Source: Polytrichum commune (taxonomy: Eukaryota > Streptophyta > Polytrichopsida > Polytrichales > Polytrichaceae). From it: a stretch of DNA of 64,000 nt. Numbering within the stretch: the stretch's first letter is position 1; every line of letters begins with the position of its first letter. Below the pieces are notes generated by a model. It searched no databases. It was not told where the DNA came from and saw only the letters and a program-made list of their open reading frames with translations. Of the stretch, positions 33,753 through 56,242 are shown one piece after another. The translations under genes and the position numbers were made by a program. The stretch covers positions 4,900,501 to 4,964,500 of the forward strand of contig OX485808.1 in assembly GCA_950295325.1 (NCBI GenBank), written 5' to 3'.

Positions 33753-33930
33753 GAAACCTCAAATAAAATGGACAAAATATAAGGGTACAAAAGAATCAAT
33801 TGATGGAGAAGGCAAGACATAATGATCATTTGGGACAACGCGGCCCGACACATGTGGAACACATCTACTATGAGATCTCCTAATATTGTGCATCAGTCCA
33901 AAAATGCTCCACAACATAGTTTGGGAGCGG

Positions 33931-34705
33931 GTTTGGGTCGACCGACTCAAACCTTGTACCACGATGCATCCAGGTCCATTTACAATTCGTTCACGGAATG
34001 GGGTTTGGGTTTGGGTCGACCGACCCAAACTTTATAGGGTTAACCCACCCACACTGGAGTACGGGTTTGAGTCGGTCGACCCAAACCTTATCAAGGTCAT
34101 ATTAAAACCTCTCACAGTTGGGCAGGGGTTTGAGTCGACCGACCCAAACTTGATCAGCGTAAATCCACCCACAGGGGGTAGTGGTTTGGGTCGGTCGACC
34201 TAAACCTTAAAACATGATGCGTTTAAGCTAGTACTGAGTCCGTCTAACCCTTCTGAGCATATGAATTAAGGGCCATTAACAATTCGTTCGCGATGTGGAA
34301 AAAAGTTTGGGTCGACCGACCCAAACCTTCTCAATGTCATATAAAAACCTTCCAATGTGGGGAAGGGGTTTGGGTCGACCGACCCGAACCTCCTCAGGGT
34401 CACACCATATCCGCCAACATTGGGGTGTGGGTTTGGGTCGACCGACCCAAACCTCATCAGGGTCATACCTTATCCTCCAACAATGAGGTGGGGGTTTGGG
34501 TCGACCGACCCAAACCTCCTCAGGGTCATACCCTCCCTCGAAAACAATGTGGTGTGGGTTTGGGTCGACCGACCCAAACCTCCTCAGGGTCATACCCTAC
34601 CCTCGAACAATGGGGTGTGGGTTTGGGTCGACCGACCCAAACCTCCTCATCGTCGTACTCAATTCGCCCACAATTGGGTGTGGGCGAGGGTCGATGGACC
34701 CTAAA
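33931..34705. repeat. Palindrome array upstream of DUF7869 gene A
   Basis: Eleven near-perfect 22-bp palindromes built from the half-site GTTTGGGTCGA start at 33931, 34009, 34065, 34128, 34184, 34305, 34368, 34431, 34494, 34558 and 34621, plus a decayed one near 34684. From 34305 the spacing is 63 or 64 bp, with similar linkers, so the array is also a 63-bp tandem repeat. The centre is usually CGACCG; in two units it is flipped (GTCGGTCGAC). The array begins about 180 bp upstream of the ATG of the DUF7869 gene. Confidence 0.95.
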
Positions 34706-34749
34706 TCACCGCAAAATCCGGCGTTTAATGCGGCGGAAATCGTGAGGTG

Positions 34750-37035
34750 GGTTGGCTTTTTGCTCATTGCAAAGTTCACAGTGGGGTTGCATGCTGTGGA
34801 TAGCTGTTCATGAACGACAGCATGCACAAACCTTGAAGTACAGCTCCGACTGAGAGTTCTCCCTACGAATTCAGGAGTGTGAGAACAACAAAAAAAACCG
34901 ACTTTTGAGGGGTGCGCCCCTTTATACCATCCACCTCCGCTTCCCCGACTTCCTCATTGGATGCCTTCACCGCCTAGTTTCCCGCCTACTTCTCTAGGTT
35001 ATTTCAAACCTCCTGACAGAATCCCCCAGTTTTTGTTAATTAAAGAAAATGCGCATCTAACCTCAGCCGTCATCTGGATACCCCAGCCGTCATCTGAGTT
35101 AGCGTCTGACTGTATTGATAGTGCGTATTGAAAGTAATGTGGATATTTAATCCGTTTTTCATTGTTTTGTGTGGTTATGACATGCACCATGCACATATGT
35201 GAGGAAGGGTGGCGGCCACATTAATTTTTTTAAATGTCATGAGGAGAGAATGTTTGTGATAAGTGATTTAGAACAAAAACTTCTACAATGTCACCCTAAT
35301 GCATCATATACATATTAAATGATGATATTGATCTACTTTAACTCAAACATTACAGTATGGCATTAACCAATATGTAGACAAAAGAAGTCTAAACATTGTG
35401 TAACGCCTTATGGTAAGAGTCACTAAATACAATAGTTAAAGTGGTTATGAAGATCCTCGCAAGGGAAATTATTAATTTTGAAATCAAATTATGTCATGAC
35501 AAAGTTCATTTATTGTTCCAAATCTGAATTTGCAACAATGCAAGTGACAAGAGCTTTTATATATAATATGTTGTCATCCCTAAACCCTAAACCCTACAAT
35601 ATTGTCCTATTCTCTCGCATGCAAGTGTGGCAATGACGAATGTATGTGGACGTCGATAAGGGGATACTAACTACCAACGTCGCTTTTTAGTTCAATATTT
35701 CCATGCTAATTGAATCCATCCTCGAGTTCACTTCAAGCTTACTAATGTGTGTGAACAGAACATCCAAAGTTGAACCCTAAACCCTTATAACATCCACAAC
35801 ATGAAATACGTATTGACTAAACCCTACACCAATTAGTATATCATGTTTAGACGTTCCAAATAACATATTCACATGATCAAGATTGTGTTCACTATAACCT
35901 TCCTATTAGACTCTTCTTAATATACAAACAACATTTGTTATATCTTTCTCCATTATCTAATATACGTGGAGGGAACAATGAACAACAACACGATTGCTTG
36001 CATGGCTTCATTTGATGTTGTGCTCAACCGATTTACGTTTATATCACATTCCATATATTAAATACATCACGAACCATGGTTTATTGGCGACTATATGATT
36101 CATCAAAGGGAGCAAAACATCCAAAGTTAGACCCCTAAATCCTAATAACATCCACAACATGAAATGCTATTTGAATAAACACAAGACCAATTAGTATATC
36201 ACGTTTAAACGTCCCAAATAACAACTTAACATACTCAACATCATCTTTACTATAACCTTCCTATAAGACTCTTCTCACCAGTAAGTCAATGTTGTACGTT
36301 AATATTGGATAGATTAATATGTTATAACCCTGACTTTTAAACCCTAAACCCTAAACCCCAAATCTTGTAGTTGTTCAGTGCTACCTCCATATACAAACAA
36401 CATCAAGTTTATCTTGCGCCATTATCTAATATACTTGGAGCGAACCTTCAATAACAACATGATTGCTTGAAGGGCTTCATATGATGTTGTGGTTCTCCGA
36501 TTTGCTTTTATATCACATTCCAAGTACATATATCACGATCCATGGTTTATTGGCGACTTTGTGATTCATCAAAGTGAATATCTAGGGGATACCCTATAAA
36601 ACTTGAGCATGTTAGCATTTTGAAATAAAGATCATGCAATTCCAAACCCTCACAATATGCACTTGGGGAAGGTATTCATTTAGGCTCCACATTCAAATAT
36701 CCTCAATTTCCGAATTTCATGTTGGGGGGTGGGGATTGTCATTTTTATTCATTGCATATTGTGTGAGTTGTTGGCATCAATGGTAAAGTCTAAATGTCAA
36801 TGATTACATCGTTAAATGTCACGTAATTGTATTAATTTTTTTTTCTAACGTGCTCAAACAAACGAGAAACCAATGACTTCAACTTGTTTGGAAAATTTAG
36901 TTAATGGTGTCATGTAAGTAGGGGTTAAGTATTAGTGTTAGCATAAAGTTGCGTTGTAAAGATGCATTAGTTGTATAAATGGTTTAATTTTTTAGAATAC
37001 CTCATTTGATGTATACCTTAGGCTACTCCAAAGTC
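34750..37035. other. Non-coding spacer with diverged tandem duplication
   Basis: AT-rich, no supported gene. Units 35757-36117 and about 36118-36581 are diverged tandem copies (shared tracts: AACATCCACAACATGAAAT, CTATAACCTTCCTAT, CCATGGTTTATTGGCGACT). CCCTAAA telomere-like tracts occur at 35579-35600 and 36337-36359. Confidence 0.7.
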
Positions 37036-37039
37036 TATT

Positions 37040-37930
37040 GAAAATTGTAATACCCGCTAAGGGTTTACTCCTTAGAGGGATGGGAGTTAGGGTTCCCCGT
37101 AACCCTATTCCCGTTGCTGCCCTAATGACGTTGGCACCCTATTCGTGCGGTTGGGGGCCAATTCCCGAGGCCAACAAAACCCTAGCCGCCAAGCATTCTC
37201 CTCCTTTCTCTCTCTCTCCTCCCCAACCTTTCGCTCTGCGCCTCTTGTGGAAGCGCCGCCTCTCCTGAAGCGCCGCTTTCGCGAAGCACCGTGGCGATTC
37301 AGGGTGGCACTTTTGTTGACATTCTTTCTCCACCCTAGTTTTTCTTCTCCTTCCCTCCCTTCTCTTGCTGTAGCGGGAGATTGCACTTCTGCAATTTTAG
37401 AAGTTAGGAAATGTTGCAATATATAGGATTGTTGAAGTGTTTTCCAGATTGTTGAAGGGTTTTTCAACATTCTATGTGAGCTTTAGCCAGTGCTTGTGAG
37501 AGTTAGAAGTGCGGATGAGTGCTTGTGAGTGCATGTGAGTGCTTGTGAGTGCATGTGAGTGCTTGTGAGTGCTTGTCAGATTAGGAAGTTCTATAAGAGA
37601 TACAAAAGTGATACAAAAGTGATTTCAAAGATTTAGTTATTGTTTTGAAAGATTCAGTTGTTGTTTTAAGAGACTCAGTTGTTATTATGAGAGATTCAGT
37701 TGTTGTTTGAGAGTTACAATTGTTGTTTGAGTGATTCAGAAGAGACTCAGGAGTTGTGTGAGAGATTGTGGGGTTATTGAGAGATTCAAGAAAGGTTTGA
37801 AATCTCTGGTAGTTGTTTGTGAGTTTTAGCGTGTCTGCGAATAGGATTTCACTGATTTTGTCTTAGTCGAAGAAGAGCACTTGTTCAAAAGCAACCATCT
37901 GCAACGACTACAACAGCAAGTGTCAGCAAA
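37040..37930 (+). promoter_or_regulatory. Putative promoter / 5' leader of the large cassette A gene
   Basis: A CT-rich, GC-richer block (37195-37370), a 10-bp tandem repeat (GTGAGTGCTT/GTGAGTGCAT, 37505-37570) and GATTCAGTTGTTGTTT repeats (37640-37740) precede a good donor-like AAAG/GTATTG at about 37930. The next acceptor, TTGTCGTGCAG at 38504, is directly before the ATG at 38505. This suggests a 5' untranslated exon and a leader intron holding the 32-bp-period palindrome array. Inferred only; no transcript evidence. Confidence 0.35.
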
Positions 37931-38049
37931 GGTATTGTTTTTTAAGAGGTTCAAATATGTGTTTCTTAATTGACAGTGTTGTAGCATACACAATGCATAA
38001 GCATTGTATATGCTACATGCCAAGTTTAAAAAACAATATTAAAATAAAC

Positions 38050-38295
38050 AGTTTTGGGAGACGACCCAAACACAACCTCATGTTTGGGTCGAGCGACCCA
38101 AACTCAGCCTCAAGTTTGGGTTGAGCGACCCAAACTCAGCCTCAAGTTTGGGTTGAGCGACCCAAACCTAGCATCTTGTTTTGGCCGGTCGACCTAAACA
38201 CAACCTCATGTTTGGGTCGAGCAACCCAAACCTAGCATCTTGTTTGGGTCGGTCGACCCAAACCCAACCTCATGTTTGGGTCGAGCGACCCAAAC
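38050..38295. repeat. 32-bp-period palindrome array
   Basis: Eight palindromes of the GTTTGGGTCGA family; seven start at 38082, 38114, 38146, 38178, 38210, 38242 and 38274 (exactly 32 bp apart), preceded by a partial one near 38051. Each unit is one 22-bp palindrome plus a 10-bp linker (such as TCAGCCTCAA). Centres vary (CGAGCG, TGAGCG, CGGTCG). A further single copy lies at 38457-38478 in the putative leader intron. The period is half of the 63-bp period at 34305-34642. Confidence 0.95.
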
Positions 38296-38504
38296 TTAAC
38301 CTCATTTTTATAAACGTATCAGGACATCAATGATGATAAAGACGATATAAAGTGCAGATCCACCTACAAATAACAAAGTACCATATTACCTTACAAATGA
38401 CTATTATATCACAATATACAATCCATGAAAAATATGCGTTTGTTCAATCTGGAGAAGTTTGGGTCGAACGACCGAAACTAACATTCTTTCTTCTTGTCGT
38501 GCAG

Positions 38505-39830
38505 ATGGCCACAAAGAAAAGACCTGGAGAAAGGTGGTTCATGCTTGCGCCAGACATGTTATGGCAAGAACACGAAACACCACAAGATGACTCCTATGTC
38601 CCTAAGGACGGGCTTGTCCTAGCCTGGTCTATTCAAGTGGTGAAAGCATCACTTTATAAAATGATATTTGTTGTGAAAGTTGGGACCGTAGAGAAGCATA
38701 CATGGGCCACTCTTACGGGGTGGGAGGTGGCATCGGTTCAAGCTCTTGGAGACTACGTGGATGTCGTCCTCGAGAACACCGCTATGCAGAACACCCATAT
38801 GTTCATGCACCAGTTCTCCGAACCCTTTGACGCTATATATGCAAAGGAGACGTGTGTGGATCCAGACGTCATCAAACCGGAGTCAATATTCATCGACGGA
38901 AGTATATCGAACACAAAGGTGTCGAGCCGGTTTACAAAACTGAAACATGCGATCAGCGTGCTGAACAAGACCCTGCAAACCAAGTCCAAATCTCAGCAAC
39001 CAGTGAGGCGGAAAACACCAGCTGAGGAAGGTGCAGGGTCGTCAAGGCCCCAATCGGTGAGGAAGCCGCGACCAGTACCGGCTGACTCAAGACGAACCAC
39101 TCCCTCTGAGACACCGGCGGATAGCGAAACTCCTACGCCCTCAGGGAGCCGGCAAACAACTCCGTCCAAGAGGGCCAGAGAGTCATTTGTGATGACTGAC
39201 GAGCCAGTCTCTCCTGAGTTGCGTATGCCGAAGCCCGGCCAGGAAGTGGATGCAGGGGAGATCCAAAAAATCGTGAACAATTTCACGACAAAATGCTCCC
39301 ATTGTTTTTTCATGGGCAGGGATTTCAAGTTCGACGTGAACATCAGCCAGTGCCATCTAGCGCCACCAAAAAAGTGTGTCCGGGCAAAAAAAGACGCCTA
39401 CATCGACTGGATAATTGCACAGATCGTTAGCGAGCAATTCAAAGACGACAGGCAAACGATTGTAGTGATGCCACAAGGACAGAAGAAAATGCCCACACCT
39501 GAGATGTGGCCGACAATTCAGAAAGGGGATTTCTGGCTGATAGACGGCCAGTACAACGTGGAGATGTCGAAGAAAATCCAACTGATGACTGAGTGGGACG
39601 ATCCCAACCATCAGAAGGAGAAGTTGAAGGTGTGGAAGGCATTGGTGGTGTGGTCTGACGATGAGACCCGACTGAGCGACATCTCCCGTTATTTCAACAT
39701 GGGGAATAAGAAAAGGGCCTACCAAGCTTCCTGGATAAGGAATATCATGGCCTCGCGGGAGGTGTGGGAGTTCTATGGTAGGCCTCCCAAGGAGAGGGAG
39801 AATGCGAAGGACAAAAATCCAAAGTGGGAG
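38505..39830 (+). CDS. Large cassette A gene, exon with ParB-like segment
   Basis: A 442-codon exon from ATG 38505 (directly after a TGCAG acceptor) to a GAG/GTGAGT donor at 39830. Residues about 185-275 are Ser/Pro/Thr/Arg-rich and probably disordered. Around residues 325-375 lies G-D-F-W-L-I-D-G-Q-Y-N-V, which resembles the I-D-G-x-H/R-R motif of ParB/sulfiredoxin-fold domains, followed by a Trp-rich stretch (W-K-A-L-V-V-W-S). ParB-like domains fused to or next to DNA methyltransferases are known in prokaryotic mobile elements. The N-terminal 180 residues are unrecognised. The frame itself is intact, but downstream exons carry stops, so the gene may be dead. The ParB reading is weak. Confidence 0.55.
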
Positions 39831-40063
39831 GTGAGTATTGTGAGGGCCTTCCATTTGTGGTTTGGGTCGTTCGACCCAAACTCTTGTTGCAGTCCTGTTA
39901 GTTTGGTTTGGGTCGATCGATCCAAACTAGTATTGTAGCCTTGCTTTTTTGGGTTTGGGTCGATCGACCCAAACTCTTGTTGAAGTTCTTGTTCATGATA
40001 TTGCTTGAGGACCAAATGTACATATCTAACAAACATTCCAATGTTTGTTTTGTTCACATGCAG
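39831..40063 (+). other. Intron packed with three palindromes
   Basis: GT-AG intron of 233 bp, phase 0 (donor GTGAGT, acceptor TTCACATGCAG). It contains the 22-bp palindromes at 39860, 39906 and 39953, whose centres are CGTTCG, CGATCG and CGATCG. Reading frames that span the junctions agree on both sides, which supports the intron. Confidence 0.75.
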
Positions 40064-41395
40064 GACTTTAAATACCAAATGATAAATAAATTCTCCTCTA
40101 TTGATAATGCTAGTCACAAACAGAAGAAATACAACGAGCTGAGAGGGGAGATTTATTTAATTACAGCATCCGACTCCGTTTGGGCGAAGTGGAAGAGTGT
40201 GTTTGAAAAGCATGAGACGGGGGAGCTCATCGACCCAGACACATGAATGTACTTCAACCAAACCGCGCGCTTCAAACAAATGAAGCCGCTCGTGAGAGAG
40301 TTCTTTAGAACTCTTCAAGGGCTTTCAGAGGCGGAGGTGGAGAAGGCGGCGTCGCACATCCTGCACGTGGAGCCCACGGCGAAGAGGTGCTGGGTGCATC
40401 CGAAGATTGTCTTCCTAAAGCCCAAATCCTTCGTTCCTTCATGCTACACCATGAAGGAATGGACGGAGATTAGGAAGAAGAGGACGATTATCGTGCATGA
40501 GCTGCATAAATTGGTTCCGGAGAAGAACATTTTCGTGGATGGCGAGGTCCATGTGGAAAACTGGAGAGCATTCAAATCTGAATACAAGTTTACCAGTGCC
40601 TCCATAGCTGCTTTCGTAAGGGAGGCGAGAGAAGACTTCTTGCGGTCCAAGTTCGTGAAGGGTGGAAAGAACCGGGCGCTTCCGGATCACTCAGCGCGTG
40701 CGTTCTCCAACTTCATCAAGGAGAAAAAGATTGTCCACTTTGAGGGGGACGCTTACTTCAACCTTGTCACCTTCGAGCCTCTGAAAATTTAGGGCTGGCC
40801 AAGTCAAGACGCCAGAATGGCAATAAGGACGAAAGCAAGGGACCGCTTTCCTTTTGGAATGATTGATTTCAGGAACATTCCTGGAAGCTCATTTGAGGGC
40901 ACGATGAGCACCCTCTTCTACGACCCCTTCCTATCCAAGTTCGTCGATTATGCGAGCCCTAAGTTCAGGGAGGTAGATATCTGGCTTTGGATAGTCGAGG
41001 ATAGGAGGGCGGAGCAGGTGTATGACCTTGTGCGGAAGTTGCAGCCGGAGTATGCTGTCTCCAAGTCTCACTACATCGCCTCACCGGCGGAGGGGGCTTA
41101 TACGACGTTGAGGGACAAGAAGACCAAGTTCGTCAACGTCTTGTGTTTGTACTTTGTGTACAAAGCGGAGTTGCTGAAGGTGCCGAACCACCCTATATCC
41201 CGGATGGATAAACTCTTCCAAGTCCCGGAAGGGTTGGGTGCCAGCAAGTGCCTCTACGACGAGGCGAAGTATGCGAACTATCCTGCAGATGAGCTGCGGA
41301 TGGAATTTTACGTGAGAATGATGAGGACGCTGACGAGGAGAGGAGACTGCATCTTCAACGTCTTCGGGGGCTCGAAACCCATCTACGCAGCCATG
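40064..41395 (+). pseudogene. Large cassette A gene, exon with possible methyltransferase fold
   Basis: A 1332-bp, phase-0 exon broken by two in-frame stops, TGA at 40244 and TAG at 40790, with protein-like sequence in the same frame on both sides. After the second stop a Y-D-P-F motif (40919-40930) and, near the end, R-R-G-D-x-I-F-N-V-F-G-G-S-K-P-I-Y-A-A (about 41340-41390) recall motifs IV (DPPF) and I (D-x-F-x-G-S-G-T) of amino-methyltransferases in the order used by the beta class. The catalytic residues are altered, so it is at best a degenerate or non-catalytic fold. Both stops lie where a C-to-T change in a CG or CHG context would create them. The 5' half of the exon is unrecognised. 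Confidence 0.5.
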
Positions 41396-41516
41396 GTAAG
41401 TGTCCATCACATAGCTCGTGCGCAGTTTGGGTCGATCGACCCAAACTATATATTATTTTTGGTCTTATTTATGTCCCTCGCCTAATTCTAATTTCCATAT
41501 AAATTGGATTGTATAG
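41396..41516 (+). other. Intron with one palindrome
   Basis: GT-AG, phase 0, 121 bp (GTAAGT donor, TTGTATAG acceptor). The palindrome at 41425-41446 has the CGATCG centre. The flanking frames run smoothly into each other. Confidence 0.8.
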
Positions 41517-42997
41517 ATGTTGGGGTTGAACATCTACTCATACATAGAGGATGGCGATTTGCAATTTTACAAGACGCAGAAATCGCTGGCGAGGGAGATG
41601 GACATCCTCGATTGGATCCTGGGTAGCTACGTAGACGAGGTTGTTCAGGGGGGTGAAAACTCTCTTGATAGGGCGAGGCGGATCAACCCGGAGGAAATGG
41701 CCACGAGGGCCACAACCCAAGTACCCGAACCTCTTGTCGGGTTGCATCCGGGCAATCCGTCCCGCACAGCAGGTGGAGAGGTGGAGGAGGTGGATGAAGA
41801 AGAGGAACACGGAGAAGAGGAAAAGGAAGGCGATGTGGAGGAAGGGGCAACGGGCTTCACGCAAGAATCCGAAGCCCCTCAACGGAAGAAGGCCATGCGG
41901 GTGGCAACCCCTCAGAGCAAGTTGGTGCCCGTCCTGACGGTGGATGATGCGAGGGACATGTTCTTCAGAGACGCGACTGCCACGTTCAGGGAGAGGAGGA
42001 GGTTGAAGGGAAGAAGCTCTATGGCGACTACGCAGTGGAGGAGACCATCGTCATAAGCAGCGAGGACGACGACGACATTGAGCTCGCCAAACGGCTCAGA
42101 TCGGATCCCCCCTCCTCGACAGCGTTCGCTGGCATGGTTAGGGTGAAGCCCGAGGTCCTGACTGTGGAGGAGGCGAACGAGAAGATGGGGAGGGACAAGG
42201 AGCAGCGAATCCGCCTGCAGAAGGCTGCCGCGGAAGAACCCTCAATGCGGAACGAGGTCGCAGAGCTGAGGGCTCTCCTGTTGGAGCAGGAGCGTCAGAG
42301 GGCGATGGCCCAACCTCCGTCCCACGCAGACTTGATATCACAAGTGATACAAGGAATGTGGGCGCAAGGATTGGTGGTGGCTCCGTCTAGCTCGTTTCCG
42401 CACTTGCCCCCCGGCTTCCCAGCGCAGAACATCCCTCAGCACCCAGTGTCGCAGGGGTCATTCAGCTTCCAGCACATGCGGCCGCACCATGTTCCGTACG
42501 CCCCGATCCAGCAAGTAGACGATCCCACCATCTGGCGCGTCCCAGGAGCCTCCTCCCCTTTGGGCCCTCCACCACTTCGGCCCCCCATAGCCATGCCACC
42601 CCCTCACCAACAGGACGACCCTATGATGTTTGGGTCGACCGACCCAAACCCAACATCCACTGTAGGTCCCCAAGGCACCTCTCCCGATGCGGGGCAGTTT
42701 GGGTCGGGCGACCCAAACCTCGGTGCATATCAGTCTTCCCTTGACCAACATGGGTGTCAAATAAACACGGCCATGTTAGATGTTGAAGGCCTGCAAGGGC
42801 CTGGTGATACCTCTACTCCCAACCAAATCGATGAACCTATGCATGATGCACATGCGGAGATTGGTTTAGGACAAGGGCCTGATGCTGAACCTTTGCAGGA
42901 GAAGGTTACTGACGTCGTCGGAGAAGGCGGTGGCGAGAGAGGCAGGGCAACGGGGACGGTGGAGGCTTCCACATCGTCGAGACATGACCAGGGCGAG
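41517..42997 (+). pseudogene. Large cassette A gene, acidic and coiled-coil-like tail exon
   Basis: Begins with M-L-G-L-N-I-Y-S-Y-I-E-D, continuing the methyltransferase-like core, then a Glu-rich stretch (41770-41860). A one-base frameshift between about 41985 and 42010, inside a GAGGAGGAGG run, moves the frame; beyond it comes an acidic S-S-E-D-D-D-D-I-E segment, a short heptad-like helix (42170-42310) and a Pro/Gln/His-rich tail. Two palindromes (42628-42649 and 42697-42718) lie inside this coding frame and encode F-G-S-T-D-P-N-P and F-G-S-G-D-P-N-L. The exon ends at a GAG/GTAATA donor (42998). The frameshift could be a sequencing error. Confidence 0.5.
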
Positions 42998-43018
42998 GTA
43001 ATACACTGAGCCCTCCCA

Positions 43019-43040
43019 ATTTGGGTCGACCGACCCAAAC
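43019..43040. repeat. Single palindrome in an intron
   Basis: Same half-site family (TTTGGGTCGA with CGACCG centre), placed a few bases after the inferred donor at 42998. Confidence 0.9.
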
Positions 43041-43481
43041 TTCTTGGGTCATTGTCTTGTTGGCCTGGTCGTGTCCCCCTTGCTAGGAGGAAATGCACAC
43101 CCCCTCCCCCTCTCATGCTCAACACTTGCCCCCCCTCCCCCCAACGTGCCCCCCGCGATCCTTTTCGTCTCACCTGCACTCGACTACGCTCGACCTTGGC
43201 GGCGCGCAACCAATTTTGTAGATGTAGAATTAGGATAGTGTGAATGCCCTCGTTCACCGCCCCCCCCCCATCAAATTGTACATAGAGATTTGTAAAAATA
43301 AAATTATTTTTTTTGGCGCCCATATGTTAGCATCCGTGTCCCAATGTATGTTGTTCCCCTTGTATGTTTTTGTTGCCACCAATGGTCCAATTCTTCTTGT
43401 GTTTGCACAAAATTTCCGTTCTGCTTGAATTAAACATAGCATAACATAGTCCTCGCCGCCTTCTCTCGCTCGTCGCCGCAG

Positions 43482-44295
43482 GGGTCGGAGCATAGCGTCG
43501 CGGCTCCCCACCGGTCCTCCCCGAGGAGCGTGGAGGACAGCGTGGTGGTCCCCCCCGATTTTGCCCTCGCCACCTTCGCCTCCCAAGACCCGATTCCTGG
43601 TGCTAGACCTCAACGGGGTCCTTGTCCAGTGCGTGCATTGTCCGAGGGTCCCCACGGTACCTTTCTGCAAGCCCGAGGACGCCAACTACGATGGACCCCC
43701 CGTGTACATCAAAAGCAAGCTAGTGTACCTCCGCCCGTGGCTTCGGCGCTTCCTGCAGGTCGCCCTATCCAAATGGTGGGTGATCGTGTGGAGCTCCATG
43801 AAGTCCGAAACCACCCAGGCCGTCGTGGAGTTCATCTTCAAGGGATTCCAACCCCCGTGCTTGGTCCTAGGACAGGATTCTTGTAGAATGTTATACACCC
43901 CCGAGGGCAAGGTTGTGAAAAAGCCCAACAACCCCGCCGTAAACCAATTTCTTAAGGTCTTGAAGCCAGTCGTATGGGACCAGCGTCCGACCATGGTCGG
44001 CTGTCCCTACGACGTTCGCCCCACCCGTGACAACACGTTGATGGTGGACGACAGCGCTTCCAAAAACATTTTGAACCCGACCTCGAACTTCATAGTTTGC
44101 CCCACGTGGACGGTCGAGAAGGTCCGAGACCGCTTTTTGTTAGACCTACTTAAGTACATTCAAACGCTCGTGGGGAGCGGACTACCCGTGCCCCGGTTCC
44201 TTAGTTGTAATCCGATAGGCGAAAGATACATGGATCCGAAGGACTATATGTACAGAGAGTTGTACGCTCACGCGAAATATAATAAACTCATTTGA
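43482..44295 (+). CDS. FCP1-like HAD phosphatase domain (cassette A)
   Basis: After a C-T-rich tract and CGCCGCAG acceptor, the frame at 43482 starts with a Ser/Pro-rich stretch. The phosphatase frame from about 43555 carries F-L-V-L-D-L-N-G-V (HAD motif I, with the second Asp replaced by Asn), V-W-S-S-M-K (motif II region) and L-M-V-D-D-S-A (motif IV), ending at TGA 44293. Plant FCP1-like proteins with D-L-N-G are a known group; with the general-acid Asp missing, catalysis may be altered. The two frames differ by one base across a C7 run near 43550, so the upstream exon and phosphatase may be one gene with a homopolymer frameshift, or the phosphatase may have its own start. The domain also occurs in cassette B. 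Confidence 0.7.
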
Positions 44296-44421
44296 GATAC
44301 TACATGGTGTGCCATTGTGTGTGATATATTATGCCTCAATTGTATATCGATTTTCACATGCTCCCCCCTCCCCCCCTCCCCCCCTCCCCTTGGGTTTTGT
44401 TTGTTTTAATTTTGCCATCAG

Positions 44422-45214
44422 CGTTTGGAGCCCTCGATTGAGATCGTCAGCGAATCAAACTTGGGGAGCTTCTTCTACGAGACCGTCTACGATGCCGCGT
44501 CCACCATCGACTACTCCAAGGAGCCTATTGACGCCGGTGTCGTCGATAGCCCCCCAACCAAGCAAATCTTCCGGCGATCTCCGTCCCCGTCGCCGCTCAA
44601 GGGCATAAATCGCAAATGCGTCCGGACATCCCCTTCTCAGCCCGGCGGCAGTATTACACCTCAACGGCGGCTACGGATGGACACTTGGCCAACGAAGAGT
44701 GGAACCCTTCCTATTCCTTTGCGGGACGCATTGCCCCTCCTCGCCAACTACGACGGGAATGCCCCCGGTGACAAGGTGAACCCCCCCCCCCCCGAAAAAA
44801 ACATGGTTAACCGCGCATTACAATCATCCCGCACTTAAAAAATGAACGTGTGACACGTTTGGGTCTTCCTCCCTAAACTAACACGTGTGTTCTTGCATTC
44901 ACGCGTTGCAGGTTGCTCCCACCCGTAAACCTATGCAGGCTAGTGTGTCCGTCGAGTTGGAGCGTTTCTACTCCATGACCAGAAATGCAAGACAGTCCAC
45001 TTCATCATATTCAAATTCTTCGTCGTATAATTCGGGCGGCCGACGGAATCCAAAATGTGTTATTGATGGCGGTCACCCCAAGAATGGCTATAGTCGCGGG
45101 GCGGAGATTTTCAGGAATGTTGAAGCAATGCGAGCAAAAGAAGCCGCAACAAAAGAAAAAGAGACAAAAGAAAAAATTGCAAAAGACAAAGAGGCAGTCT
45201 CCGAGGCTAGATAG
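44422..45214 (+). CDS. Downstream exons of cassette A phosphatase locus
   Basis: Two phase-0 exons, 44422-44775 and 44912-45214, joined by a GT-AG intron (GTGAAC donor, GCGTTGCAG acceptor). They encode a Ser/Pro-rich segment and a C-terminal Lys/Glu-rich helix ending at TAG 45214. There is no start codon at the head of 44422, and a strong pyrimidine tract and CATCAG acceptor precede it, so these exons are continued from something upstream; the joining donor in or after the phosphatase exon was not found. No family is recognised. Cassette B has the same arrangement, with unnamed exons right after its phosphatase. Confidence 0.5.
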
Positions 45215-45379
45215 GCCATAGTAGGCGTAGGGTTTTGGGGGCATAGGCAACATCATTTTGGGTCGCACTATCCAATGGATGTGTGGTGTTAGCATGCTAT
45301 GCATTTTACATGCCATAATTTGTAGTTTTTTTTGCAATAATATAAGTGTCACATGATTTCCCCTTCAATATGGTCTAAG

Positions 45380-45590
45380 GTTTGGATTGCCCTACCTAAA
45401 CCATCGCAAATATGAGTTTGGAATATTTTGTATGTTATATTATATTGGTTCACATATTTCCCCTTCAATATGATCTATGGTTTGGATTGCCCTACGTAAA
45501 CCATATTCATACAAGTTTTTGTGCGATAATATGAATGTTTTAAGATTCCCCCTTCAACTTGGCCTAAGGTTTGGATTGCCCACCCTAAAC
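45380..45590. repeat. Three decayed palindromes
   Basis: GTTTGGATTGCCC with facing TAAAC occurs at 45380, 45480 and 45569, each surrounded by CCCCTTCAA-type repeats about 90-100 bp apart. They look like diverged members of the GTTTGGGTCGA family and mark the last trace of cassette A on the right. Confidence 0.6.
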
Positions 45591-45922
45591 AATCCCAAAT
45601 ATGAGTTATTAATGGGGTTCTTGTTCTAAACACCTGCTTCAAAGTGTTCGCATCTTACAACTTTCTCCAATATGTGTTCCATTTATCCTTGTTCTTATTT
45701 CTGTGAATGTCTCAAAATGCCCAAAAAGTCTCAATTTAACGAATATAGTGTTATATGACACTAAGTATAATATTTAGTGTATTTGGCTCCTTAAGAAAGT
45801 AATCCGGCTCATCATAAGGCCCATGTCAGTGTTCGCCCATATCCCACCTCACCTTGGTGGCAAGTACCAACCCTTGCCCACATCACATAGGAATATTGAG
45901 GCCCTTGGATAGGCCTTGGTGG

Positions 45923-46114
45923 TATTGGAAGATAGTGTTAGGTTGCATCGGTGACATTGTCCCATATGGGTTGTCTACGCTGGTCCTAACCCATACATAT
46001 AAATAAAGGCATAAGGGAAGGAACTAATCACTCTCTCCATTGTATGCAATCCTTGTGTGTTGTGTTCTACCTTTCTACGCTGATGTCTTTGCTTTCTCCT
46101 CTCATTTCCCAATA
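45923..46114 (+). mobile_element. 5' LTR of the copia element
   Basis: 192 bp; TATTGG start, CCAATA end; a TATA-like TATAAATAA at 45998-46006 is the probable promoter. Confidence 0.95.
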
Positions 46115-46127
46115 GGTTATGGGCCCA
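46115..46127 (+). other. Unusual primer binding site
   Basis: GGTTATGGGCCCA follows the LTR directly. It does not match the common TGGTATCAGAGC. It resembles, with one mismatch, the complement of the anticodon stem-loop of initiator tRNA-Met (a GGTTATGAGCCCA-type sequence), which would mean priming by an internal tRNA fragment as described for Drosophila copia. Inference from memory of the tRNA sequence. Confidence 0.55.
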
Positions 46128-46368
46128 CTTTGCTTTAGAGCTTAGAGATCAACTTAGGAGGAGGTAGGAGAGAGCCGGATCTGATCGGAGGCGATTTGGA
46201 GGTGTTTCAAGCTTTTGGTGGAGTTTTGGAGTTTTGGAGCACTTTTGGAGCGCCTTGGAGCATTCTTGGACACTTGGACCAGCGTGGAGGACACCTTAGG
46301 TTGAGGTTCATTGTATCTTGAGTGTTTACGTGAGATCGATTCGCATTTTGAGGGTTTGAGGTGATTAG

Positions 46369-46930
46369 AGTTCCAAAAGGCTTAGTTGTGGCTTTTTGAT
46401 GGTTATATAGTTATTAAGCTTAGTTTTGGAGTAGAAAGGTGCTGACTTGAGAGATCCATCCATTCTATGCTTACTTTGAGGTGTTTTGAGTTCCAAAAGG
46501 CTTAGTTGTGGCTTTTTGATGGTTATGTAGTTATTAAGCTTAGTTTTGGAGTGGAAAGGTGCTGACTTGAGAGATCCATCCATTCTATGCTTAATTTGAG
46601 GTGTTTTGAGTTCCAAAAGGCTTAGTTGTGGTTTTTTGATGGTTATGTAGTTATTTGGCTTAGTTTTGGAGTGGGAAGGTGCTGACTTGAGAGATCCATC
46701 CATTCAACACTAACTTTAAGGTGTTTTGAGTTCCAAAAGGCTTAGTTGTGGTTTTTTGATGGTTATGTAGTTATTTGGCTTAGTTTTAGAGTGGAAAGGT
46801 GCTGACTTGAGAGATCCATCCATTCAAAACTAACTTTGAGGTGTTTTGAGTTCCAAAAGGCTTAGTTTTGGCTTTTTGATGGTTATATAGTTATTTGGCT
46901 TAGTTTTGGAGTGGAAAGGTACTGACTTGA
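46369..46930 (+). repeat. 120-bp tandem repeat in the copia leader
   Basis: Units starting GAGTTCCAAAAGGCTTAG recur at 46369, 46489, 46609, 46729 and 46849, exactly 120 bp apart; the last is partial. They lie between the primer site and gag. The minus-strand frame here is only a by-product of a period divisible by three. Confidence 0.95.
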
Positions 46931-47046
46931 GTGTGTGAGAACCTTGAATTAATTCCAAAGTTTAAAATCAAATTCTAAATTTTTTCGAGGGTTTTTTAGC
47001 CCTCGTGGTACATTAAGTGAGTGGGAGCTTGCATTTGAGTTGCAAA

Positions 47047-49530: not shown

Positions 49531-51111
49531 AATGTGAGAGAGGCCATTCAATCGAGTGATGCGAGCGAGTGGGAGTTGGCTATGCAAGAGGAGTTCGAAT
49601 CTCTCATTGCCAATGGCACGTGGGAGTTAACTCCATTGCCAAAGGGCCGCAAGGCCGTGAAGTGCAAATGGGTGTTTAAAACGAAAAAAGATGCGAGAGG
49701 CGTGGTGGTTCGTTTTAAAGCAAGGTTAGTAGCAAAGGGGTGCTCGCAAGTGGAAGGCGTAGACTTTAGCGAAACCTTTGCACCGGTGGCCAAATTCAAC
49801 ACCATTCGAGTCATACTCGCATTGGCGGCGGCCATGGGCTTGGAGATACATCAAATGGACGTCAAGACCGCATTCTTGAACGGCGAATTGGACGTGGTCA
49901 TCTACATGGAGCAACCGGAGGGGTTCGTGCAAAAAGGCCGAGAGCATCTCGTATGCAAGTTGAGGAAATCGCTCTACGGATTGAAGCAATCCGGACGAGC
50001 ATGGTACGAATGCATTAACGTGTTCTTCGTGAACAAAGGCTTTACGAGGAGCCATGCGGATCACTCGTTGTATGTTTTGCAAACTTGCAACTACATTGTG
50101 ATTGTCATCATATATGTGGACGACCTCGTGATTTTGTCGGACGACGTGGATATGATCAACGAGTTGAAGGCTAGCCTCGAGCGCGAATTCGAGATGAGCG
50201 ACCTCGGCGAGTTGCATTTCTTCATCGGCGTTCATTTCGAGAGGGATAGGAGGTCGCGCACCATCACCATGCATCAACGAAGCTACATCGAAACCATTTT
50301 GGAGCGATTCGGCATGAGTGATTGCAAGCCCATCGCAACCCCGCTCGACACCAAGACATCGTTGCCGAAGCTTTCGGATGACGAGCACGAAGAGCATTTG
50401 CATGAAATGAAGGACGTTCCATACCAAGAGGCGGTGGGGTCGTTGATGTACGCCATGGTGGCCACAAGACCGGACCTCGCATTTGCGGTAAGCGTGGTAA
50501 GCCGGTATATGTCGAAACCGGGTCCGATGCATTGGATGGCGGTCAAACGGATCATGCGCTACTTGAAGGGCACCTTAGATATGAAGTTGCGCATCGGAGG
50601 CAATCATATTAACGTCAAAGGGTATTCGGATGCGGATTGGACCGGCGATGTGGAAAACCGTAGGTCCACGTCCGGGTACGTATTATTTGTTGGAGAGGGA
50701 GCCGTTTCGTGGAATAGCAAACGGCAACAAACGGTGGCACAATCAACAATGGAGGCGGAGTACATGGCCATGAACCGATGCACGAGGGAGGCCATTTGGC
50801 TAAGGCAATTAATGGAGGATTTAGGTTGTGTACAAGAGGAGGCCACGACCATCATGTGCGACAATCAAGGTTCTATGGCATTAGCTAAGAACCCAACCAA
50901 CCATGATAGGTCGAAGCATATAGATGTGCAACACCATTTCATTAGAGAAAAAATTGAAAACAAAATTGTAGAGTTAGAATATTGTCCAACGCAATATATG
51001 GTAGCGGATATTCTAACAAAGGCTTTAGCGAGAGATAGGCATGAGGGGTTAAGTGAAATAATGGGGTTGGAGTACAATGCCACCTCGCAAAGTGGGAGTA
51101 TTGGAAGATAG
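49531..51111 (+). CDS. Copia reverse transcriptase-RNase H
   Basis: Continues the gag-integrase frame beyond the single stop. RT hallmarks include K-T-A-F-L-N-G, Y-G-L-K-Q-S and the catalytic Y-V-D-D-L; RNase H has A-D-W-T-G-D and the final T-K-A-L segment. There is no ATG at its head (the first ATG nearby, 49532, is out of frame and stops at once), so independent translation is unlikely. The stop codon (51109-51111) lies inside the 3' LTR. Confidence 0.93.
   Translation, partial: NVREAIQSSDASEWELAMQEEFESLIANGTWELTPLPKGRKAVKCKWVFKTKKDARGVVVRFKARLVAKGCSQVEGVDFSETFAPVAKFNTIRVILALAAAMGLEIHQMDVKTAFLNGELDVVIYMEQPEGFVQKGREHLVCKLRKSLYGLKQSGRAWYECINVFFVNKGFTRSHADHSLYVLQTCNYIVIVIIYVDDLVILSDDVDMINELKASLEREFEMSDLGELHFFIGVHFERDRRSRTITMHQRSYIETILERFGMSDCKPIATPLDTKTSLPKLSDDEHEEHLHEMKDVPYQEAVGSLMYAMVATRPDLAFAVSVVSRYMSKPGPMHWMAVKRIMRYLKGTLDMKLRIGGNHINVKGYSDADWTGDVENRRSTSGYVLFVGEGAVSWNSKRQQTVAQSTMEAEYMAMNRCTREAIWLRQLMEDLGCVQEEATTIMCDNQGSMALAKNPTNHDRSKHIDVQHHFIREKIENKIVELEYCPTQYMVADILTKALARDRHEGLSEIMGLEYNATSQSGSIGR
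51089..51098 (+). other. Polypurine tract
   Basis: AAAGTGGGAG directly before the 3' LTR; it is also part of the coding frame. Confidence 0.8.
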
Positions 51112-51290
51112 TGTTAGGTTGCATCGGTGACATTGTCCCATATGGGCTGTCTACGCTGGTCCTAACCCATACATATAAATAAAGGTATAAGGGGAGGAGC
51201 TAATCACTCTCTCCATTGTATGCAATCCTTGTGTGTTGTGTTCTACTTTTCTACGCTGATGTCTTTGCTTTCTCCTCTCATTTCCCAATA
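51099..51290 (+). mobile_element. 3' LTR of the copia element
   Basis: 192 bp, five differences from the 5' LTR, same TATTGG/CCAATA ends. Confidence 0.95.
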
Positions 51291-51295
51291 GGTGG

Positions 51296-52445
51296 ATCAA
51301 TGGCCTAGACGAATCATGCCTGCAACCACACAAGGTGCATTCACATCGCCTCAGTGACGCGGGTTGGGCAGGGTTGATAATACACATGGCAACATCTAAT
51401 TGCAACCCCCTTGTAAAAGCTAACAGCTAAAATTATCAACTCTATAGTTTTATTTACTTTCTAAAATAAGGATTTGGAACTTTATCAGCAAGTATCGATG
51501 CATTTTGTAATAAATTCTTTGCTAAGCAAGTGGTTACCTTCAATGACCTTCTCACAACCTTCTAACTAGACAAAAAAACATACTTAAGTTCATCCCATAA
51601 CATTAAGTAGTAAGCTTGAAATGGCCTCCTCAAAAGAGCATCAAATGGGCGCGTGTTGGTTTGATGCTCTTTCTTTCATAAAGGTAGCACTACCTTCGAG
51701 TTTTTCTAGGGTTATTTTTTGTATATTTGGGTAGTTACTTTCACCACTTAGAATTAATTATGTCAGTTTTAAGGAAGAGAACACTAATCCCAAGTGACGG
51801 TAAAGATCTAGGCTAAATTAGAAGCTAAACAAACCTAAATAGCTATAAAGCAATGAAAAAAGTTGGTAGGGTCAAAAAGGTAGTTGAGTTTTTTGGAAAA
51901 GTCTTCTGAAACCCACATTGAAAACCTTTTCGGCACCTTTTTGAAACCATTATTTTTTTGTTAATTCCTCATTCATTCACCTGTGCATTGCAAGTTTTTC
52001 TCTTCTTGTTGAGGTAATATAGCACGTATTCAAAGGATACCCTGCTAGCATTGCTACTAAATGTTATGCAGTTAGAAAAATAAGGGCCTCATGGGCAATT
52101 AAGGGTTAACAAAAGTGTATTAATGACAATTTTTCAATTGTACAGGGTTGAAATATGCAAAAGGCCAAGAAAGATGAGTCTAATGTTGCGGATGGCATGT
52201 CATATTAGAGAAGTATGGAATTGCTTCATTTTTCAGATAGTTTAAATCTATATGTAATCAAAAGACGCTTGAATTAGAGGTCCCCACCCCAAGACTACAA
52301 CCTCCTTTTAAAGGTGAATGCAAATGACAACATTTGTGTCAGAAGGCCACCAAAGATACCATCACAAGGTCATGCAAAATAGTTTCAACAATTTCAATGA
52401 TATGCCTATACCTCTACTTATTCATCTTTGCTTTCAATAGTCTAC
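51296..52445. other. Spacer ending in a dispersed repeat
   Basis: No gene recognised up to 52140. From about 52140 to 52440 the sequence matches the left parts of the segmental duplications (about 1700-1920 and 14470-14575). The match to 14575 stops at about 52443, inside the 3' end of the DUF7869 gene, so this is a candidate left boundary of cassette B. Confidence 0.65.
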
Positions 52446-55400
52446 CAGTTGCACGTCCACGACCTCCAGTTCCACGTCCACGACCTACTCGTCGCGCACT
52501 CGGCAGATCAACGTCCTCCTCAACCGCCATCCCTCCGCGCTCTTGCTCAGAACAACGGCGAAGGTTGTCTTTGGCAAATTCAATCTGCTCTGGTGGAATA
52601 GTAATCTTAAGGGGCTCAACATCTTCATGTGCAGGTAGAGGCCATGCTGCCAAGATGCAGTCAATTGGTTGCCAGTCGGGGATGGAATATTTCGAATCGG
52701 CTTTCCACTTGAAGTTCCTGTTGGAGTCCCAACCATGGTATTTCCTTGTTATGTCTCTAGCAGTTGAAGTGGGAGTGAACCACTGTACCAGAATCTGACG
52801 GGGATGGTCCCCAGTGACGTTCAAGTTTGGTGGACACAAAGCTCGGCACACCCAAATGGGTCTATCAATGTCTTGATCTTGGGGTCGAAGAATGAGGAAA
52901 TGCCCCTCATGCACGTTGTCGGCAATGCGGAAAGCAGGTGCAGGTCGAAGGTTAGAGGGGCCCACATAATGGTCATTTGGTTGGTGCTCCTCACGAAGTT
53001 CACCAGTATTCATGAAAGGATGTGCGTCCAATTCGATTCGGGAGGATGGCCAGAATCCCTCTTGGAGTGCCAATCCCGCAGTGTACACATTTGTGAGGGG
53101 TGCCCGTAATGCCTCCAGTACCCCAGTCCAGTATTGTAAAAGATGTGTTTGTGAGCCCCTATATGCTCCGGTCATGTCATGGTCACATATAGATTGCCAG
53201 TAGTCAACAAACCCTTGCAACCCAACAAGAACATCGTCCAGTTTTGCCATTTCTCGAGGTTTAGCAGGGTAAGGTTCCCCAGGTGGGAAAACTGGCTCCC
53301 CCTTTATGTTGGATTTCCACATCAATATGCCATCCTTGGGCAACCATTCATCATGCGTACTAAGCACCTTGTAATGCATGACGGGCCAACCATCATCCCG
53401 TACAACAAATTTGAATTGTTGGGCTTTCGTATGGCCAATGAGTTTGTCTTGGCCATCAGGAATGTACTCACTAACAAAAGCCCTCCAATCTGGAAGCTCC
53501 TCTATCATATGTGGGATGATAGGGACCTTCTCCATGTCCATGTATGATTTCATGAGCAAGGGGATAGTGGGGTAATCATGTTCGCGCAAGTCCATACTCC
53601 ATCTACCAAATGAAGCATCAATGTCATCATGTGTATGACCAACTAAAAGGTAAGACACGTGGACCTCCGTGAATATACCTTTGGCCGTGAGCATGGACCA
53701 AAATGCCTTCACATATCTACACTTGTTGTCCTTCCAACAATTATCGAGTTGAACATGCAAAACAGGTGGAAGCGAGACAGCTGGAATAGGCTCACTGGGT
53801 GGAGGTCGTAATCCTGACAAACATACATCACTCCCATGAAGAACAGCACGATAAAGCGGCGACCGACCCGCACCATGGAATAGCATGCGAGATGATGAAG
53901 CCGGGGGCTGTTCCAAATCGCGAAGAAGCCTCGCAAATGAGCCCACAGTATGGTTGCAATCACCAGGATACAAATCCAATGCATAATGAGCATATCTCTC
54001 ATCTCCATGGCCATGAGCCATCATGCCTGTCACTGAAAGTGGTAGTTTCGTGAACATATCAGTGTCTTTGTTCTTGTTAGCAAAGCATGGAGATGCAGTT
54101 TTGCCATGGTCCATTTTGTCGTGAATGATGGTCAAAACCTTGCGGGGATGCTCAATAGACAACGCTCTCATACAGCGGTAAGCATTACGAGCGGATTCCT
54201 GCTGTGCCTGGTGCTTCTCCAACTGCTTCGAAAACCCGGTGTGTGCGGCGGAACCTTTAACATGTTGTTGAATAATAGCCATAAGTGAATCGCATTTCCC
54301 ACAGCGAGCAAAATTATCCCCTGTTCTTTTTGTCACGTAGTGCTTAAAATAATTATGTCTTATTTGGCTCAGAGTAGAAAGAGAAATTGGTTGCAACCCA
54401 CATTTTTCATTCACCTGAAAATCATACCACATGCAACATTTAGACATTGCCTCAATCCAGGTGTTCTGATTTGTGAGGCTCAGACTAACATTGAAAACGG
54501 AATAAATGGAACATCATGAGCATACTAACCTGGTTGATTGTCTCCAAAAATTTCTTCCATTTTGTTCCGCGAGGCAAAACCATCTCCACTACTCGAGTGC
54601 CGTTAGGCAAAGTGCGGGATTTATGGGGCATCATGTCCGCTTTGTCCTCTAAGAGGTTGGAAAGAATGGCAGTGGCTTGCTGTGTGGACACACGATACCG
54701 TTTGGTGTTCAAGTTTCCATGGTCTCGTGGTCGCACCCCACAATTGAATTCTTGTCGATTTCTGTAGAACGCGGTTTTTGATATTACAAATATGTGCCTC
54801 CATGCGATGAGGCAAATATCACGTCCACTTAGTGTTACGACATTCGTACACGCCCCCGGAAGTGGATGTACTTGTCCGTGGACCTCAAGACGTTTTGCAT
54901 GCCTCATCCTTGTGGAGCAATCATAAAATTCAGTTCGAAGAGCGAATGCCTCATCTCTGGGAAAGAATCTGAGGCACTCGCGATCACAACACAGAATTAC
55001 AGATAGTTGTTGTATGCTTGCATTGGTCAATATTTGGGATTTTTTTGTTGGCTTACGACGCTCTGATATCCGGGATGTATCATACGCCCTCTTCCCTTCC
55101 TTCCTTCGCTTCTCCAGCATCTTAGTTTGTGCCCGCAATCTGTGGCCACTAACTAGGATGTGATGTGCCAGAGTGCATCCATCGTGAAAAACACGAGAAA
55201 TTGGCCAGGCCCTCAAAGCAAACATGGCCCCCATGTCCATCATGCCATCAATAGGCTCCATTATGAGGACACCAACGTGATCAGGTCCCAAACATTTGTC
55301 TTCCACGCAGTCAATTGGGTTTACATTACGGAAAATTCCTTTTGCCATATTCTGTCCACGTTCGTTCACAAGCATAACAGGTTTGTTCACCCAATCATCC

Positions 55401-55589
55401 CTATGAAGTCCACTGCAATTGGGGTCAATATCCTCAACTGGAACAGTTTCATCTTCCGAGAATATTGCGTCCGAAAGGGATGACCCCTGCACATCACACT
55501 TATCATTAATAAAACATATTCCAACATACAACGTTAAACATCTAAGTTTAGAAAACCACCTCCTCTGAAGTAGATGATTCCGCATCCAT
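52414..55589 (-). CDS. DUF7869-type, transposase-like protein (cassette B)
   Basis: Three phase-0 exons: 55589-55560, 55486-54530 and 54414-52414, with GT-AG introns of 73 and 115 bp, giving about 995 residues without stops. Motifs match cassette A: H-D-K-M-D-H-G-K (Asp about 428), V-Q-L-D-N-C (Asp about 553), G-H-T-H-D-D-I-D (about 589-595), and a C-G-K-C pair. The C-terminus is Gly/Arg-rich. The last codons extend into a dispersed repeat found elsewhere in the window. None of the intron positions is shared with the cassette A gene. It is intact and may be active; its role is inferred only from the DDE-like layout. Confidence 0.78.
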
Positions 55590-55735
55590 TCTCCGCAAAT
55601 CTGCACAAAAACACTTGCGCAGTCAGGGCTACAACTTGGCCTTCATATAGCTTCACGTACAATCTGCTATTTAATCATATTAGAGCTTGCACTCGCACTA
55701 TGTTGGCTGCCAGCACAAACAGCCTGCCAATGAAC

Positions 55736-56242
55736 TTTCACTCGATCGAGTGAGAGCTAATTGGGCTGGCACTATATTCACATAGCACATGTTGCAATGA
55801 AATCCTTTCCTAATATATGGGCTCTAAATAACTTCGCAATACTATATGGTTTGTAATAATGATACAGACTGCTTTTATGTAGTGTACTGACATTCATTTG
55901 CAATTTTGAATATCACAAAGCCTACCCTAGAGCCATCTGCTGGAAGACGCCAGTGCCCTTGAGGTTTCACTCGATCGAGTGAAACTTCAAGGGTTGGCTG
56001 ATAATTAAGTGGTGTTACGGCTCTGGGTAAGTAAAGGGGAAGTAAAAGGGTAAGTAAAAAGGTAAGTAAAATGGCCAGCCCAAGGGGTTTCACTCGATAG
56101 AGTGAAACCTCAAGGGCCATAAACTTAGCCATAGCCAGCCCATGGGGTTTCACTCGATCGAGTGAAACCCTGGAGGTTTCACTCTGGCTAAGTTTATGGC
56201 CCTTGAGGTTTCACTCTATCGAGTGAAACCCCTTGGGTTGGC
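55736..56242. repeat. Palindrome cluster upstream of DUF7869 gene B
   Basis: Palindromes of the half-site GTTTCACTCGA family centre near 55746 (partly decayed), 55975, 56098, 56157 and 56219. Some extend to 38 bp (55956-55993, CCCTTGAGG outward). It begins about 150 bp upstream of the ATG at 55589, the same relative position as the array of cassette A. Confidence 0.95.
56074..56242. repeat. 58-bp inverted repeat enclosing a palindrome
   Basis: Arms 56074-56131 and 56185-56242 are complementary at 57 of 58 positions, with a 53-bp loop that holds another palindrome. Each arm also contains one palindrome, so it is a nested hairpin. RNA from it could be processed to small RNAs. Confidence 0.9.

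Follow-up and report, generated by a model that had tools for sequence, protein, structure and literature searches.

VANDALs are Mutator-type transposons. In Arabidopsis, the VANDAL/VANC system, with its VANC anti-silencing proteins, involves short family-specific motifs, 8–9 bp long, that form same-orientation tandem arrays in the non-coding DNA of the elements, according to PMC5735166 and PMC10398659. For the En/Spm (CACTA) group, PMC2613891 describes TNPA/TNP1-type proteins and subterminal repeats, and RAYTs, in PMC2817692, are IS200/IS605-type enzymes with the Pfam01797 domain, flanked by two REPs, with more REPs scattered between genes. Here we analyze a 64,000-nucleotide stretch of the genome of the moss Polytrichum commune (assembly GCA_950295325.1, contig OX485808.1; C6:4900501-4964500; hereafter, the window), which contains two cassettes, A and B, each with a DUF7869 gene and palindromes of its own class. 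Our preferred reading, to which we assign a probability of roughly 0.6, is that these palindromes are family-specific operators bound by an element-encoded dimer for self-control, most likely keeping the element's own family active against silencing. In the literature searched, judged by titles, no published descriptions of such palindromes or of DUF7869 were found, and the word DUF7869 did not occur in the PubMed Central papers searched; the named relatives of DUF7869 proteins all come from mosses (Ceratodon purpureus and Physcomitrium patens).

The palindromes are real and far above chance: GTTTNNNTCGNNCGANNNAAAC has 22 matches in the window (20 in cassette A and 2 in cassette B) compared to 0 in 100 dinucleotide shuffles, and the half-site GTTTNNNTCGA has 32 matches, whereas the shuffles averaged 2.06 and never exceeded 6. 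When all 22-bp palindromes with at most one mismatched pair were counted, 24 were found in the window and 0–2 in each Markov sequence (n = 5); 15 of these are A-type, 5 are B-type and 4 are unrelated (12407, 30058, 40028 and 48186). One of the latter (12407-12428), outside cassettes A and B, is a solitary perfect 22-bp palindrome, CCCGATTGAGGCCTCAATCGGG. Viral contigs scanned for palindromes yielded no arrays; 49 stretches had one place each, which was taken as background.

The site consists of two 10-bp half-sites and a free 2-bp spacer. The A-type (class-I) site is GTTTGGGTCG-NN-CGACCCAAAC, with AC, GT, AG, AA, TT, AT and GG all observed as spacers; when spacers of 0 to 12 were tested in 12 genomic array stretches, exact half-sites paired at spacer 2 only. 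Between classes, the half-sites differ on both arms, and the spacer varies within most classes. The original prediction had 11-bp half-sites with a shared centre; the palindromes themselves stand but the fixed centre does not. Likewise, its GTTT-N3-TCGA design is a special case and fails as a general rule, because other DUF7869 families use CCCACGGGTG or GGGTGAGGCA, and it is the 10-2-10 architecture that is common to all classes.

Cassette A is a DNA transposon of 15.6 kb with 28-bp terminal inverted repeats (30154-45752). These lie within a perfect 34-bp inverted repeat (30148-30181 / 45725-45758), the first six bases of which are taken as flank because, judging by how other copies end, the element starts at AACACTATATTCG. 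Between the two arms of the repeat lie the DUF7869 gene, a second gene (hereafter, the partner gene), a NIF-type frame and all class-I sites detected in the window. Both ends were read in one copy, and A is the only element read end to end as a complete copy. ATAT, found outside both ends of this one copy, fits a 4-bp target duplication. Element A contains 27 sites, 14 of them exact in both halves and one strongly decayed (7 mismatches); 12 of the 21 mismatches are C to T or G to A. The window has 26 A-type sites with no more than 3 mismatches, all of them within the element, including partner introns and one exon, and degenerate sites are located close to the element ends. The right-end degenerate sites have 4–5 mismatches, whereas 20 Markov sequences (64 kb) gave 0–2 such matches each; a further degenerate class-I site lies at 44857.

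The genome searched comprised 407.8 Mb in 64 contigs. The search for DUF7869 produced 1490 first-look candidates, of which 150 were scored, and 150 of 150 matched; 20 of these were hand-picked across frame lengths and scores, that is, non-randomly, and for each locus a 3-kb stretch at 1.5–4.5 kb upstream of the match was read. An array was defined as at least 3 sites, with mismatches counted per pair, and the controls were 30 stretches from gene bodies, 103,773 bases in all, together with 14 pieces of the window. With at most 1 mismatched pair, 12 of the 20 loci have an upstream array, but none of the 30 gene-body stretches and none of the 14 window pieces does. With at most 2 mismatched pairs, 15 loci pass, or 14 when the AT-rich L248 is left uncounted; 2 of the 30 gene-body stretches (three sites each) and none of the 14 window pieces also pass. 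Of these two positive controls, one is AT-rich and the other is CCCAAGGGTG beside a CCCACGGGTG locus. This control slightly weakens the count at the looser threshold but leaves the count at the stricter one unaffected.

The 14 array loci fall into distinct classes: GTTTGGGTCG (3 loci), TTTACGGACG (3), CCCACGGGTG (4), CCCACGGGCG (1), GGGTGAGGCA (2) and AGGTGTGGCA (1). When CCCACGGGTG and CCCACGGGCG, two CCCACGGG forms, are treated as one class, and GGGTGAGGCA and AGGTGTGGCA as another, no array locus holds two classes. Sites exactly of the B type (GTTTCACTCGNNCGAGTGAAAC) occur at 20 places in the genome, compared to 0 for the control, and these map to six loci, all of which are copies of the 5' flank of the B DUF7869 gene; at four of them, the DNA continues into the gene at 99–100% identity, and two were read in the flank only (91–99%). 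The genome check proposed in the original prediction, namely, grouping such inverted pairs and asking whether each group clusters near one DUF7869 gene, was run in part: the exact B-type group does cluster at the DUF7869 flank of B, and the sampled arrays are single-class. In the loci read, the predicted link between element-specific palindromes and DUF7869 genes is borne out. Among the near-identical copies of B (L219-L229, L263 and L265), the number of palindromes varies, as if arrays expand and shrink. The segment G000:C6:4974566-4974770 (L232 and L233) is an inverted copy of the DUF7869 flank of B about 18 kb from cassette B of the window, 100% identical across the bases read.

As far as the trees resolve, the palindrome class follows the DUF7869 clade and the partner clade. 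In the DUF7869 tree, the class-II clade is supported at 100/98, the CCCACGGGYG clade at 99/100 and the GGGTGAGGCA/AGGTGTGGCA clade at 100/100; the label groups require 10 changes compared to a mean of 14.5 in shuffles, and none of 200 shuffles was as low. Four of the seven rows of the GGGTGAGGCA clade and two of the seven rows of the CCCACGGGYG clade have no array. In trees of the partner, the CGG/CGGG variants P0142, P0143, P0144 and P0146 form one clade (99/99), with P0149, also a CGG row, outside it. The rows with a class-II label, six of them exact and four at two mismatches, make ten in all and fall in one 13-row clade (Shimodaira-Hasegawa-like approximate likelihood ratio test 100), with P0187 flagged for a long branch; 18 of the 51 rows are unlabelled.

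The partner proteins themselves carry translated traces of the sites. Among the 66 database relatives of the partner, 25 have a peptide matching GTTTNNNTCGNNCGANNNAAAC exactly, compared to a mean of 0.15 in shuffled proteins; at one mismatch, the numbers are 36 of 66 and 7.55, hence the exact count alone was used. These peptides are mostly in the tail, where the predicted protein reads through the splice site into the intron (the exceptions are P0151, with the peptide at the N-terminus, and P0136, with one peptide at each end); the relatives have palindromes in the intron that corresponds to intron 1 of A. In a second partner subfamily, found with P0157, the peptides decode, in different frames, to TTTACGGACG-CG-CGTCCGTAAA (class II). 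With fixed patterns, subfamily 1 has exact class-I matches in 15 of its 37 first-part proteins and in 9 of its 28 second-part proteins, and subfamily 2 has none in 14; class II is matched exactly in 6 of 14 and 0 of 65 proteins of subfamilies 2 and 1, respectively, compared to 0.00 exact matches in shuffles; P0157 and P0158 were counted apart, and neither carries a pattern. Because the class-II pattern was itself derived from these tails, the protein count by itself is partly circular, and genome DNA, in which class II was found after it had been decoded from the proteins, is the independent test. Among the 120 listed of 186 DUF7869 relatives, neither the class-I nor the class-II pattern was found. 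In element A itself, the partner gene has two in-frame stops where the relatives read on, and its exon 3 is split over two overlapping frames, an apparent frameshift; the two palindromes at 42628-42649 and 42697-42718 encode FGSTDPN and FGSGDPN, respectively, in the partner frame.

The VANDAL/VANC anti-silencing system is a match in logic, given that arrays precede genes and sites also lie in introns, that each family has one class, and that the spacer varies, the arms change symmetrically and array length is variable. As in the VANDAL system, motif arrays are found upstream of the element's own genes and in introns, motif and protein change together, and the array copy number varies; unlike the VANDAL motifs, the sites of the DUF7869 elements are 22 bp long and symmetric, and the inferred target duplication is 4 bp. 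An hmmscan search detected no MULE-type transposase domain in the DUF7869 and partner frames.

The element ends bear on whether the palindromes could instead be transposition sites, where DUF7869, presumably the transposase, assembles an excision complex, as at the TNPA-type subterminal motifs of En/Spm. Five ends have AACACTATATTCG (window A, L264, L267, L268 and L270). The 26 bases from CACTA on are identical in element A, L264, L267 and L268, with 2 mismatches in L270; L267 and L268 are class-I copies, L270 is downstream of a class-II DUF7869 gene, and the class of L264 was not read (for L269, the 1,100 bases read end before the expected terminus). Thus, class-I and class-II elements have nearly the same ends while their palindromes differ: the part that a transposase would recognise is near constant, which is hard to square with the palindromes being its main sites and fits a separate regulator. 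Moreover, A has its good sites in the interior, ahead of genes and within introns, and towards the ends the copies are degenerate. The presence of these degenerate sites close to both ends of A does fit an excision complex, as do the position of the arrays next to DUF7869 genes, with the class following the DUF7869 clade, and the retention of an array by B without a recognisable partner gene; nevertheless, we consider transposition sites unlikely, if worth serious attention. The likeness to En/Spm (PMC2613891) lies in the large size of the element, the terminal repeat being more conserved than the repeated motif, and the pairing of divergent motifs with divergent element-encoded binding proteins. 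The differences are that the terminal repeat of A begins with AACACTA and that its good sites are internal; near the ends, degenerate copies were seen. The En/Spm 3-bp duplication was not found in A, where the bases outside CACTA are TAA and TTA and ATAT fits 4 bp, and no CACTA-type transposase domain was detected in the DUF7869 frames, where DUF7869 is the sole Pfam match above the cut-off.

The regularity of the arrays is what could be expected of satellite-like repeats without a function that had spread through slippage and gene conversion and were passed on with the family. Array periods are regular, with co-repeated flanks (for example, 32, 45-47, 56/64, 59-61 and 95-97 bp), copy numbers differ among near-identical copies of B, and the array loci include three that are near-copies of each other. 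However, the half-sites remain conserved and symmetric despite changes in the spacer, differences between classes affect both arms at once, A has single motifs in introns and an exon outside the arrays, and the relatives of the partner retain the motif in the corresponding intron, so this explanation appears improbable. Still less probable is an action in RNA, through hairpins that affect splicing or feed small-RNA production: several sites are intronic, and B contains a 61-bp inverted repeat with 97% identity (56074-56134 / 56182-56242), but arrays are also found ahead of start codons, an RNA loop cannot form over a spacer of 2 bp unless pairs break, and the spacer length is 2 in 12 of 12 stretches tested, as expected of a DNA-bound dimer.

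The comparison with bacterial REP/RAYT systems drawn in the original prediction did not hold, and independently mobile REP/REPIN-type units mobilised by DUF7869 are scarcely credible: GTTTNNNTCGATCGANNNAAAC (AT spacer, any three bases) does occur at 1739 genome places, with 0 for the reversed control and the context mostly unread, and the palindromes do co-vary with a transposase-like gene family, as in REP/RAYT (PMC2817692), but A is a terminal-inverted-repeat element, REP-like scatter between genes was seen neither for the A-type sites in the window nor for exact B-type sites genome-wide, which are restricted to the six copies of one flank, and the DUF7869 proteins gave no match to Pfam01797, the RAYT-type domain, at E<=0.1 (none at E<=5 for the first exons).

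Returning to family-specific operators, the cassettes A and B would belong to a large DUF7869 transposon family in which each 22-bp site is bound by a symmetric dimer of an element-encoded protein, with one subunit on either 10-bp half-site. Gathered on the arrays that precede the DUF7869 and partner genes, as well as on the partner's intronic sites, the protein would control the element's own transcription, most likely shielding its own family from silencing. Half-site and binding protein would have changed together in each family, so that there would be no cross-activation. That related DNA-binding proteins read the sites, as originally predicted, is our inference, as are dimerisation, the choice of the partner rather than DUF7869 as the binder and the anti-silencing role. 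The partner is the first candidate binder, given the sites within its own introns and the agreement between its clades and the classes; DUF7869 comes second, since B retains an array with no partner in view. By sequence, no relative of DUF7869 was found in the PDB at E<=10.

Several observations weigh against the operator reading. The choice of the 20 loci was non-random, and the array layout shared by L242, L244 and L250 marks these loci as near-copies that are not independent. No array was counted at 6 of the 20 loci: in-frame stops interrupt L234, L238 and L240, the frames of L239 and L243 are short (244 and 196), and L248 has an open frame of 610. Decay is no clean account of these six because L248 is open and because four array loci also show decay (a stop in L235 and L236, short frames in L247 and L251). 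The GGGTGAGGCA-type sites are mostly imperfect, with 3 of 20 exact in L235 and 0 in L236 and L237. In the DUF7869 tree, for which the bootstrap had not settled, the class-I rows and window A are unresolved and form no clade; P0148 and P0149, sisters in the partner tree, have differing sites (GGG and CGG). No partner gene was found beside B, so the partner is perhaps not needed. Finally, no convincing Pfam or NCBIfam match to a known DNA-binding fold was obtained for the partner, and its resemblance to ParB is weak: 4 of 14 members matched phrog_1033, with 0.031 as the best E value, and the hhalign Probab values of 0.30 and 0.44 (percent scale), compared to 0.04-0.27 for reversed controls, are not significant.

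That the partner is a ParB-methyltransferase fusion was suggested by DGQH and GGSKP motifs seen by eye; in searches of Pfam and PHROGs (both parts), NCBIfam (first part) and the PDB sequence set, and with hhalign against YbdM, SopB and YhdJ relatives, the result was not significant, and the fusion is retained as a lead only. The same applies to the comparison with ParB-parS, which draws on the DGQH-type motif and the weak phrog_1033 match: spacing and length of the sites differ, and the profile comparison is non-significant. The B half-site begins with GTTTCAC, the parS half-site.

Table 1 Features of cassettes A and B in the window.
Feature	Positions	Strand	Details
Left terminal inverted repeat of A (AACACTATATTCG...)	30154..30181	+	Flank ATAT 30150-30153
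Degenerate class-I site, left end of A	30323..30344		5 mismatches
DUF7869 gene of A	30663..33731	-	PF25273 E=3.2e-38; two open exons, intron 32150-32287 (splice model)
Palindrome array 1	33931..34642		11 class-I sites, spacing often 63-64 bp; upstream of DUF7869 gene
Palindrome array 2	38050..38295		8 class-I sites, exactly 32 bp apart, first decayed; upstream of partner gene
Lone class-I site	38457..38478		Directly before partner gene start
Partner gene of A	38505..43009	+	Exon models 38505-39830, 40064-41395, 41517-~42998 (last by eye)
Class-I sites, partner intron 1	39860..39974		Three: 39860, 39906, 39953
Class-I site, partner intron 2	41425..41446		Exact palindrome
Class-I sites in open frame of partner exon 3	42628..42718		Two: 42628-42649, 42697-42718
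Class-I site directly after exon 3	43019..43040		Probably intron 3
NIF-type phosphatase-like open frame in A	43450..44295	+	PF03031 E=7.5e-14
Degenerate class-I sites, right end of A	45256..45590		Four: 45256, 45380, 45480, 45569
Right terminal inverted repeat of A	45725..45752	-	Flank ATAT 45753-45756
DUF7869 gene of B	52414..55606	-	PF25273 E=3.4e-40; open frames 54485-55606, 52414-54447
B-type array GTTTCACTCG-NN-CGAGTGAAAC	55735..56229		Five sites: 55735, 55964, 56087, 56147, 56208

Cassette B is a truncated relative, cut at about 52444; the break point was set by comparison with the repeat common to 14471-14582. This dispersed repeat (52171-52444) matches 1684-1951 and 14471-14582 and runs on past the position corresponding to 52444 in the other two copies. 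No terminal repeat exceeding those in shuffles was found for B, and the splice model for the start of its DUF7869 gene gives a frame full of stops. Two of the five B sites are exact, and at 55956-55993 the arms extend to 19 bp at 95%.

The NIF-type frame of A is 31% identical to a second phosphatase-like frame beside B (58588-59436), and both have asparagine in place of the second aspartate of the usual motif. The segment 57269-57296 resembles the terminus of A, with a AACACTATATT start, a GACTTT end and a differing middle; it points right and is perhaps the end of a further element. A Ty1/copia retrotransposon (45923-51290), whose end repeats are about 195 bp long and share 97% identity, is nested between cassettes A and B, with the target duplication GGTGG at 45918-45922 / 51291-51295 and 120-bp tandem repeats close to its left end; fragments of a copia-type polyprotein on the minus strand (16954-18571) are 40–46% identical to the intact copia polyprotein. 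Elsewhere in the window, two DUF247 gene copies with their flanks (3529-6748 and 20463-23695) represent a duplication with 91% identity.

If the operator reading is true, sequence-specific self-recognition of transposons would be no peculiarity of the Arabidopsis VANDALs but would have arisen again in another superfamily, and the new instance would have symmetric sites whose two arms change together. More tentatively, and with the odds somewhat against it, a superfamily unrelated to VANDAL may have independently evolved self-recognition through an open-ended series of mutually exclusive 22-bp palindromic addresses, read by a dimeric element-encoded protein of a new, possibly ParB-like, DNA-binding kind; at least five codes would then coexist in one genome, each keeping its own family active. 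The natural series of half-sites (GTTTGGGTCG, GTTTCACTCG, TTTACGGACG, CCCACGGGYG and GGGTGRGGCA), together with the candidate partners, would, if the reading is true, make the co-evolution of specificity and arrays testable, and could be a source of orthogonal 22-bp sites and binders. It would also provide a first role for the unnamed partner protein and for DUF7869.

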